Below, one piece after another: positions 28,577 through 30,676 of a stretch of 38,794 bases of DNA. Source of the DNA: Actinomycetota bacterium (lineage in GTDB: Bacteria > Actinomycetota > Nitriliruptoria > Nitriliruptorales > Nitriliruptoraceae); the NCBI GenBank assembly GCA_019348115.1, contig JAHWKB010000004.1, positions 1 to 38,794 of the forward strand. The letters run 5' to 3'. The number at the start of each line of letters is the position of its first letter. Position 1 is the first letter of the stretch. The translations under genes and the position numbers were made by a program. The notes below the pieces were generated by a model. It ran no database searches, was not told the origin of the DNA, and saw only the letters and a list, made by a program, of their open reading frames with translations.

Positions 28577-28582
28577 ACGCTA
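28577..28582 (-). promoter_or_regulatory. Candidate -10 box (TAGCGT) for the GAF kinase
   Basis: Minus-strand TAGCGT overlaps the TAG stop of the DUF916-like gene, 27 bases before the kinase GTG. It would allow kinase expression independent of the surface-protein pair. Hexamer only. Confidence 0.28.
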
Positions 28583-29620
28583 GTCCCCGGCAACGGCCGT
28601 TACGTGTTCCCGCCCCGCACCTTCGTCTGGCTCGTCCTCGTCCTCCCGCCGCCGCTTCGCGACGAGCCACAACATGGCGAGGCAGATGAGGAGAAGGAGG
28701 ACGGCAAGCCCATGGAGGGGTGTGATCCCTCCATCCGCACCGCCGAAGAAGGCCCCGCCAAGAGCGCCACCCCGCAACTCGTTCTCAGCCGCATCCGCCG
28801 CGCCCTCGGGCACATCGACAGGCTCGCCGGGCACGACCGTCCCGTCGCTCAACTCCACACCGATGACGACCTCGCCAGGCAAACCGGCTGGGAGACGCCA
28901 GTCCGCGGTTAGGGTCCGGGCGTAGCCCGGGATGATGTTCTCTGCCACCATCGGAACGCGGGCCACAGGTTCGCCTGTCGGCAGCGAGATGACGAAATCA
29001 CCCGAGGGGCGGACGTGCGCATCGCCGACATTCTCCAGAGCCACCTGCAGCACGACATCGCTGTCGGTGGCAGTGGCCGACATGGCAACGCCGCGGCCGC
29101 GTAACGACTGGTTCCATGGTCGTGGACCGCGGAGTAGGAAGATTGCCGCGAGCTGCGTCTCGACGTCGATTGCCGCCGCACCGTCCTCGTTCACGAGACG
29201 AGCTACGACGGCCTTATAGACAGCGACGTCGTTCGGAAACCGGAACTTGACCTCGATGGAGCGCGACTCCCCTGGAGCCAGAGCGATACGCCCCTCTGTT
29301 TCCAGCTGCATCGTTTCGCCGTCACCCTGCTCGAAGACAGGAGTGCCCTCCAGTGTGTGCCCGAGGTCAGCTCCGACGATCTCCAGGTCCTGAGTAGCCT
29401 CAGTGCCGTTCGAGATGATGACGTCGAGGGAATGCTCTCTCTCAGCCAGGTCTAGCTCGCCGCGCGTAGGCGTGATCGTGATGCCGTCAGGAGGCGCGAT
29501 GGCCGCCGGCCCGGCCGCAACGAGCGTCGACGTGCCGATCAAGAAGGCCAGTCCGCTCACCATACGGCGGACGGCCGGCGTGGACGCCGGCCGTCGCCGA
29601 GGATTCCTACGGCGAGGCAA
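28580..29620 (-). CDS. DUF916/WxL-binding-like membrane-anchored surface protein
   Basis: A 346-aa protein with an Arg-rich N-terminus and signal peptide (hydrophobic core about 20-42, then APPDGITITP), two beta-rich extracellular domains (about 45-140 and 165-265), a C-terminal transmembrane helix (HGLAVLLLLICLAMLWLVA, about 303-321) and an acidic cytoplasmic tail. The layout, with ITPTRGELDLAEREHSL, FRFPNDVAVYKAVVA and ENVGDAHVRPSGDF...PGYARTLTADWRL, resembles the DUF916/DUF3324 proteins of Firmicutes that partner WxL surface proteins. TTG at 29620 abuts the upstream TGA and has GGAG 5 bases before it. Base composition is clearly less GC-rich than in flanking genes, suggesting transfer. Function inferred only: cell-surface anchoring or binding. 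Confidence 0.7.
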   Translation of the reverse strand: MPRRRNPRRRPASTPAVRRMVSGLAFLIGTSTLVAAGPAAIAPPDGITITPTRGELDLAEREHSLDVIISNGTEATQDLEIVGADLGHTLEGTPVFEQGDGETMQLETEGRIALAPGESRSIEVKFRFPNDVAVYKAVVARLVNEDGAAAIDVETQLAAIFLLRGPRPWNQSLRGRGVAMSATATDSDVVLQVALENVGDAHVRPSGDFVISLPTGEPVARVPMVAENIIPGYARTLTADWRLPAGLPGEVVIGVELSDGTVVPGEPVDVPEGAADAAENELRGGALGGAFFGGADGGITPLHGLAVLLLLICLAMLWLVAKRRREDEDEPDEGAGREHVTAVAGD

Positions 29621-30145
29621 TCAGACTCCGGAACTCACGGTGTAGGTCAACTCGTGACGGTAGGTCCCCGCCGGGTCCAACGCCGTCGCCGGCTGCGTGA
29701 CCGTCAAATCATACGTGTCACTCGTCGTCAGAATGCCAGTAAGCGGGTTCGTAGCCAGCGCGACGGCCGTCGTCCCGACCGGAACCGCGAGGTTGCCGAC
29801 GCCGGTGCTGGTACCCGCATTCACCGCAGACATCGTCATGCCAGACGACAGCACGTTCGTGCCATACACCGAATTGATGGAATCCCATTCCTTCATCGTC
29901 GCGTTCAACGACTTCACCGAAAGGGTGTACGCCGTGTTGGCATCCACGGTGATCGAACCGATCGCCGCGGCCGTAACCGGCAGTTGGGCGAGCGTCGCAT
30001 CAGCGGGAGCGGACGAAATCGTGATCGTCCCAGCCAAAGTCCCTGTGACGTTCTGGGTCTCGGCGCCAGCGCCGGCGACACCGAAGGCGGTGGCGAGAAG
30101 GGTGCTGGCGAGGGCGGTGGCGGCGATCTTCCGCGAGATCCGCAT
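29621..30145 (-). CDS. Secreted WxL-like beta-rich surface protein
   Basis: A 174-aa exported protein: basic start MRISRKIAAT, hydrophobic core to about residue 25 and signal cleavage near GAGAET. The mature part is Thr/Ala/Val/Ser-rich, has no cysteine, and looks all-beta. It ends GTYRHELTYTVSSGV, which resembles the tail of WxL domains (Y..tLtWtL), with Tyr in place of the usual Trp. Assignment rests on this tail, the size, the secretion signal and the coupled DUF916-like gene; it is not a firm family match. ATG at 30145 has AAAGGA 7 bases upstream. Codon use is less GC-biased than in neighbours. It heads a leftward run with the DUF916-like gene, a kinase and an amidase. Confidence 0.66.
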   Translation of the reverse strand: MRISRKIAATALASTLLATAFGVAGAGAETQNVTGTLAGTITISSAPADATLAQLPVTAAAIGSITVDANTAYTLSVKSLNATMKEWDSINSVYGTNVLSSGMTMSAVNAGTSTGVGNLAVPVGTTAVALATNPLTGILTTSDTYDLTVTQPATALDPAGTYRHELTYTVSSGV

Positions 30146-30676
30146 CCGGGAATCCTTTGATCCGGGGCCGGATTGGAGGGCGGCCCGCTGTCACTCAGAG
30201 CATCGCCGCGGTTACTGGATGACTACATAGGGCAGGTTGCCCATCCTCACCTTCCGTGACGCGAAGAAGAGGACATACCCGGCACGGTCAGTGACCGTGC
30301 GGACAGGCCCGACAGCGCGAGCCCGGCCGCGTTCCCGCTCGTTCTGGGTGCGATCCGCGTCGAATCCGAACCCCGAGGTGCGGAATCGCGTGCCCGAGCA
30401 CGGGGCCGCGGGACGACCGCGTCACGGTGCGTGGTCGGGCCGAGCGCGGGGCGCGGCCCGCTGTCATCGTCCGCTCGGCCGGCGTTCGCTCGGCGTGGAC
30501 GGCGAGCAGGCACGGGACCGTGAGCAGCTGGGCCCGGGATACGGGGAGGGGCTGCTCGCGGTCGCGGTGGACCCCACGGTCCAGGCGGGACCGCGCGGCG
30601 GCGCGCTGCCACCGGGCACGGGAGCCGGGCAGGACTACGCTCGCCGGCCCGCCCCGACCGCACCCGCGAGGAACGC
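30146..30676. other. 531-base divergent intergenic region
   Basis: No gene is supported here. The ORFs across it (for example minus 30247..30696 and plus 30237..30890) are Arg/Pro/Ala-rich and look like GC-frame shadows. The left part (about 30190-30300) is AT-richer and should hold the leftward promoter of the WxL-like gene; a TATGTA at 30229-30224 (minus) is the best but weak candidate, and GGGCA/TGCCC forms a small hairpin at 30230-30242. The right end holds the TACGCT box of the rightward cystathionine beta-synthase gene. Confidence 0.5.
30636..30641 (+). promoter_or_regulatory. Candidate -10 box (TACGCT) for cystathionine beta-synthase
   Basis: TACGCT lies 35 bases before the ATG in non-coding DNA and would give a leader of roughly 30 bases. 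No clear -35. Confidence 0.4.

Follow-up and report, generated by a model that had tools for sequence, protein, structure and literature searches.

The WxL anchoring system is known from lactobacilli and enterococci. In a 38,794-nucleotide stretch of actinobacterial DNA (hereafter the window), which belongs to a MAG of 2.95 Mb in 422 contigs, two adjacent genes, A and B, were described preliminarily from the sequence alone as a WxL-like surface pair of low GC content. The locus raises two questions: whether the two proteins are a divergent actinobacterial version of the WxL system, and whether the pair was acquired or has evolved quickly where it stands.

Organization and codon use of the gene pair

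The locus consists of a single A gene and a single B gene, lying between a GAF/histidine kinase gene and the gene for cystathionine beta-synthase (CBS). The positions of the features are summarized in Table 1. The open reading frames are as given in the preliminary description: the genes are coupled, A encodes a secreted beta protein that ends in ELTYTVSSGV, and the product of B has a signal peptide, a pair of beta domains and a single transmembrane (TM) helix. This helix is followed by KRRREDEDE. The TTG start codon of B directly follows the TGA stop codon of A, again as described. The same two-gene order occurs in two other genomes at 29–37% identity, which indicates that A and B are real genes and not chance open reading frames.

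Table 1. Coordinates in the window of the gene pair and its parts.
Feature	Position	Strand	Description and basis
Gene A	30145..29621	-	174 aa, mature part ~146 aa; open reading frame, ATG start, signal peptide
Gene B	29620..28580	-	346 aa; open reading frame, TTG start, signal peptide, profile and fold match
B beta-sandwich domain 1, in the place of WxLIP PGBD/DUF916	29126..29485	-	AF2 strands 47-162; hhalign to actinobacterial WxLIP; Foldseek to 9i1y
B beta-sandwich domain 2, in the place of WxLIP HBD/DUF3324	28811..29104	-	AF2 strands 173-269; spanned by the profile alignment
B transmembrane helix	28652..28720	-	AF2 helix 301-328; hydropathy maximum from residue 302
Tyr-Thr-Leu (Y73-L75), in the place of WxL motif 1	29921..29929	-	Y73-T74 invariant in three A proteins; aligned to the Trp that is invariant in actinobacterial WxL-like proteins
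Tyr-Thr-Val (Y168-V170), in the place of WxL motif 2	29636..29644	-	T167-Y168-T169 invariant in three A proteins; aligned with the WxL-like C-terminal strand
A signal peptide, resident (native-like) part	30062..30145	-	83% DNA identity to G001; codon-adaptation index 0.62 vs 0.31 in mature A
5' leader and A signal peptide block shared with G001	30069..30211	-	blastn, about 144 bp, 81% DNA identity, E = 1e-34
39-bp block shared with G001, W-L-V-A-K-R-R-R-E-D-E-D-E, possible 3' exchange junction	28631..28669	-	87% DNA identity

The GC content of the pair region was 0.63–0.65, compared with approximately 0.70–0.75 on both flanks, and is the minimum of the window. The GC3 values of A and B were 0.805 and 0.754, whereas those of the neighbouring genes were 0.92–0.99 and that of the genome, determined from 49 gene-like open reading frames on its other contigs, was 0.949 ± 0.024 with no value below 0.87. 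These results confirm the low GC content that had been pointed out and indicate that the codon use of the pair departs clearly from that of the genome. A codon-adaptation index trained on 17 genes of the window, which themselves score 0.67–0.88, placed mature A at 0.31 and the B ectodomain at 0.33. The signal peptide of A scored much nearer to native genes than mature A did, and the shift is abrupt where the signal peptide ends. The 30-codon tail of B was not native-like by the same index.

Between the divergent A and CBS genes, positions 30282-30300 of the window form a perfect 9-bp inverted repeat with a 1-bp centre (GCACGGTCA-G-TGACCGTGC). This repeat, a candidate operator, is only partly conserved in G001, a genome of the same genus.

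Relationship of B and A to WxLIP and WxL proteins

Single-sequence scans of A and B against Pfam and NCBIfam gave nothing above cut-off. B matched neither PF06030 (PGBD/DUF916) nor PF11797 (HBD/DUF3324) at E ≤ 10, so that neither curated cut-off was reached, and PF06030 had no match in the genome. The conserved motif NQIDKxxxYFDLK of the N-terminal region of WxLIP (PMC10599100) is absent from the B sequence, and a pattern search of viral contigs for the NQIDK motif returned no match. B was then compared with an alignment of 19 actinobacterial WxLIP partners (A8) from which B itself was left out; at E ≤ 0.1, PF06030 matches 17 of the 19 and PF11797 four of them. The A8 profile found B as its sole match in the genome, with E = 3.5e-18. 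The hhalign value of B against the actinobacterial WxLIP proteins was 99.4% at full length, across both domains, and 98.9% for the ectodomain without the signal peptide and the helix, while 60 column shuffles gave at most 1.4%.

The AlphaFold model of B (pLDDT 66) is composed of two tandem Ig-like beta-sandwich domains and a helix; its loop and linker regions, where the 20-residue buttressing loop between the domains of WxLIP would be sought, are of low confidence. The top PDB match of this model in Foldseek was 9i1y, the solved WxLIP of E. faecium (E = 1.6e-8), and 9i25 ranked fifth. The TM-scores against WxLIP structures were modest (0.39–0.51), with 12–13% identity over the fold alignment. 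The solved WxLIP was reached only by this fold search and by a PDB sequence search with the broader A8 profile; earlier PDB searches by sequence, in which B-type queries were used, gave noise. The A8 match, the hhalign values and the first Foldseek match, obtained where the Pfam cut-offs are not reached, indicate that B is almost certainly a WxLIP homologue that the curated families do not capture, as judged from sequence profiles and a predicted structure. B thus belongs where the preliminary description had placed it, with DUF916/DUF3324 proteins, the DUF3324 assignment of domain 2 following from architecture and predicted fold only.

B resembles the WxLIP proteins of Enterococcus, Lactiplantibacillus and Listeria (DUF916 PF06030, DUF3324 PF11797 and a TM helix; PMC10599100; PDB 9i1y and 9i25) in its signal peptide, two Ig-like domains, C-terminal TM helix and length (about 340–350 aa), and in the adjoining gene for a small secreted beta protein, and they are its best fold match. 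It differs from them in scoring below both Pfam cut-offs, in the missing NQIDKxxxYFDLK motif, in having no large WxL partner and in its low sequence identity. The chaperones of chaperone-usher pili (CfaA, FimC and YadV) also appeared in the Foldseek list and share the two-Ig-domain architecture, but they are periplasmic and have no TM helix, and the likeness is one of the fold list. By analogy, this likeness suggests that B might donate a strand to its partner.

The evidence on A is weaker. The PF13731 cut-off was not reached in the Pfam scan, Trp is missing from both motif positions, and the two Trp-x-Leu motifs are not present. A WxL-like profile was built from 17 small secreted actinobacterial proteins (A7), eight of which match PF13731 (best 1e-14), and its best match in the genome was A (E = 0.0026, signal peptide included). 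The hhalign value of A against these WxL-like proteins was 96% with the signal peptide, and for the mature part it was only 13% (local) or 44% (global), above all 60 shuffles; the value of 96% was therefore discounted. When hmmsearch was run on the mature part alone, A was outscored by one of 2000 shuffles. The AlphaFold model of A was poor (pLDDT 52), both Tyr motifs falling in strands of this low-confidence model, and Foldseek found no credible fold match for it. A also matched weakly in two other genomes, G033 and G034 (E about 0.005), but these matches span molybdopterin-biosynthesis-like and transporter-like genes without a B-like neighbour and were rejected as chance.

A has in common with small WxL proteins (PF13731; PMC9772566) a signal peptide, a single beta domain that reaches the C-terminus and two aromatic-x-aliphatic motifs, the second near the end, and is unlike them in the Tyr that replaces Trp in both motifs, in its shorter mature part (~146 aa) and in having no Pfam match; homology is suggestive. 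The missing Pfam, Trp-x-Leu and fold matches, together with mature-only profile scores near noise, would also be expected if A were some other small secreted beta protein, unrelated to WxL, that occupies the place of the small-WxL partner. We consider that origin the less likely one, because A agrees with a WxL partner in where it lies, in its size, in its C-terminal LTYT strand and in the gene with which it is paired, because the profile alignment sets both Tyr motifs against those of WxL, and because no other protein of the genome matches the WxL-like profile better. On its sequence we lean towards A being a true WxL relative. The WxL-like character first ascribed to A is backed by the aligned Tyr motifs and the best profile match in the genome and not by a PF13731 match, the mature scores being suggestive only. 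The pair accordingly fits the description of a divergent actinobacterial version of the WxL system through the profile and fold of B, with a suggestive link through A.

A different pair at the same locus

The CBS protein of G001 is 93% identical to that of the window (88% at the DNA level). The CBS-adjacent position in G001 holds a different WxL/WxLIP pair, related to that of the window, which has weak matches to PF13731 (E = 0.009) and PF06030 (E = 0.006) and whose A gene has a GC3 of 0.92. The G001 contig ends just beyond this pair, so the comparison of synteny covers the CBS side of the locus. Two further genomes of the same family (G009 and G007) have G001-like pairs beside CBS, G002 has a third type, and G012 and G005 have other genes at this position. 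The actinobacterial WxL/WxLIP pairs (G001, G009, G045 and others) share the two-gene order with the window, and those of G001, G009 and G007 also the CBS locus; the window pair differs in belonging to another ectodomain lineage, and the A proteins of the other pairs retain the invariant Trp of motif 1. The gene-neighbourhood comparison that had been proposed found the same pair order as in the window in G060 and G097.

The A signal peptide block and a 39-bp stretch where the B helix ends both match G001 (Table 1); in the interval that separates them, no DNA match between the window and G001 was found. The similarity scores of the B ectodomain were 328 to G060, 281 to G097 and 55 to G001, whereas the helix and tail of B are nearest to G001 (89, compared with 65 for G060). 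In a tree of 30 B homologues, the window B grouped with those of G060 and G097 (support 100/100), and forcing it with its CBS-locus neighbours G001 and G009 cost 121 log units and was rejected (AU p = 1e-31). The A8 profile search found no second WxLIP in the window genome. The DNA block pattern, the ectodomain and tail scores, the tree conflict and the single WxLIP together argue that the exposed block, mature A and the B ectodomain, was likely replaced. Support for the 5' junction of the exchange, which lies at the A signal peptide, is good; the 3' junction is placed only tentatively because the codon use of the B tail is not native.

The locus and orientation shared with G001, the similar signal peptide (83% at the DNA level) and the similar TM helix and tail would equally be expected if the window pair were the true orthologue of the G001 pair and had diverged vertically through quick evolution with relaxed codon use. 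This is improbable in view of the ectodomain, which scores 328 to G060 against 55 to G001 and clusters away from G001 and G009 in the tree, and of the codon shift, which sets in sharply where the signal peptide stops. That the locus ancestrally held two WxL/WxLIP pairs in tandem, of which each of the two species lost a different one, has an equally small probability in our estimation; two A-like genes do occur at some actinobacterial loci (L036, L040 and L062), but both pair types occur together in no searched genome of the family, and a tandem by itself leaves unexplained both the low GC3 of the window pair and the match of its signal peptide and leader to the G001 gene. Between the two origins offered in the preliminary description, these comparisons (the different G001 pair, the tree and the codon use) support acquisition, in the form of replacement, and disfavour fast vertical divergence.

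Proposed surface module, its topology and its distribution

We think it probable that the two genes make up a divergent surface module of the WxLIP type and that its ectodomains were exchanged together, in one block. A and B would form a minimal two-protein module of the WxL/WxLIP type at the cell surface. B would be exported and display two tandem Ig-like domains, with its C-terminal helix and basic cytoplasmic tail fixing it in the membrane of the bacterium itself, and A would be secreted and retained by B at the face of the wall or membrane. By analogy with known systems, an A–B complex at the surface is quite probable. In the published model, WxLIP binds and stabilises WxL via its first domain and an inserted strand (PMC10599100), and PDB 9i25 is titled as a WxLIP bound to a long WxL. 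Following this model, contact between A and the first domain of B would probably be by beta-strand pairing. Mature A and the B ectodomain probably arrived as one low-GC block from another lineage and displaced the resident WxL/WxLIP pair beside CBS, with the resident promoter and A signal peptide retained and the B anchor perhaps retained as well. The physical complex, the strand pairing, the wall binding and the route of recombination are the parts of this model that we infer.

At least three Lys/Arg residues lie within 15 residues after the TM helix in 29 of 30 actinobacterial B homologues. At the CBS locus of G002, of the same family, a WxLIP-like membrane protein (L101:2147-3673) carries a C-terminal helix-hairpin-helix (HhH) domain, of the DNA-binding type, after the TM helix (PF14520, E = 1.7e-13); it is predicted to face the wall and possibly to bind DNA with its cytosolic tail. 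In its homologues L066 and L036, the helix is followed by a lysine-rich tail that resembles histone H1. For the WxLIP of Firmicutes, a role in host adhesion with the helix inserted in the host membrane has been proposed (PMC10599100). For B this is very improbable: the basic cluster in 29 of 30 homologues resembles a stop-transfer signal, and the HhH domain of the G002 homologue makes sense only in the bacterial cytosol, both of which argue for anchoring in the bacterium's own membrane. We also know of no host for this actinobacterial class.

The pair type of the window was found in three members only: the window genome, G060 (an Egibacteraceae MAG of the same class, Nitriliruptoria), where it sits between ruvC-like and YebC-like genes, and G097, from another actinobacterial class. 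Wider searches of 66 genomes of the window's class and five of the class of G097 gave no further clear pair member, and scans of genome contigs and viral contigs with B or alignment A3 gave the Egibacteraceae MAG only. No plasmid record contained a relative of B, and there is thus no evidence for a plasmid vector. PF06030 matches are present in 32 of 397 actinobacterial genomes. Of 40 WxLIP-like loci from genomes across Actinomycetota, at least 19 have a gene for a small secreted protein directly upstream; these proteins are rich in T/S/V/A/G, and their C-terminal strand is usually Y...T.T-like. The genomes of family f23 (8-10 Mb) have B alone.

Firmicutes hold 91% of WxL proteins (PMC9772566), and WxL clusters are defined as one WxLIP with two WxL (PMC10599100); our literature search found no description of this actinobacterial two-gene module. 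The pairs extend the WxL/WxLIP system, reduced to two genes, to actinobacteria for which we know of no host. More tentatively, and with some doubt, a minimal two-gene WxL/WxLIP module may be widespread in Actinomycetota, and lineages may trade its exposed halves as whole blocks at one chromosomal position, each keeping its own promoter, export signal and membrane anchor. If so, such a module would serve to vary the surface of bacteria for which no host is known, and in one lineage its A protein would lack Trp and have Tyr-x-Leu instead. The exchange of a block at one fixed position suggests diversifying pressure on the exposed parts, which could come from phages, predators or neighbours, for instance. 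The natural allele pair in the two species of one genus offers a test of which parts must co-vary.

Several other WxLIP-like loci differ in their surroundings. In family f25 (L029, L030 and L033), the WxLIP-like genes have cytoplasmic extensions of ~130-180 aa with the conserved end LFPSM..R.VD...ET...IDD.L and lie next to lgt/ccdA-like genes and uvrA, with no adjacent A gene. In the related small genomes G181, G211 and G230 (L049, L057 and L060), a gene for a LytTR-type DNA-binding regulator directly precedes the WxLIP-like gene, with no A-like gene. In G035 (L108:2617-5056), a small LPxTG-type protein (PLPRTG) adjoins a 347-aa A-like protein and a WxLIP-like gene, which recalls the Firmicutes WxL clusters with LPxTG partners. 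In G007 (L107:3269-6654 and L046:2514-3140), a gene for a 697-aa protein ending in GTYEAVLTFTVM is followed by a WxLIP-like gene and then a sortase gene (PF04203, E = 1.9e-25), and this locus resembles an actinobacterial counterpart of the large-WxL cluster.
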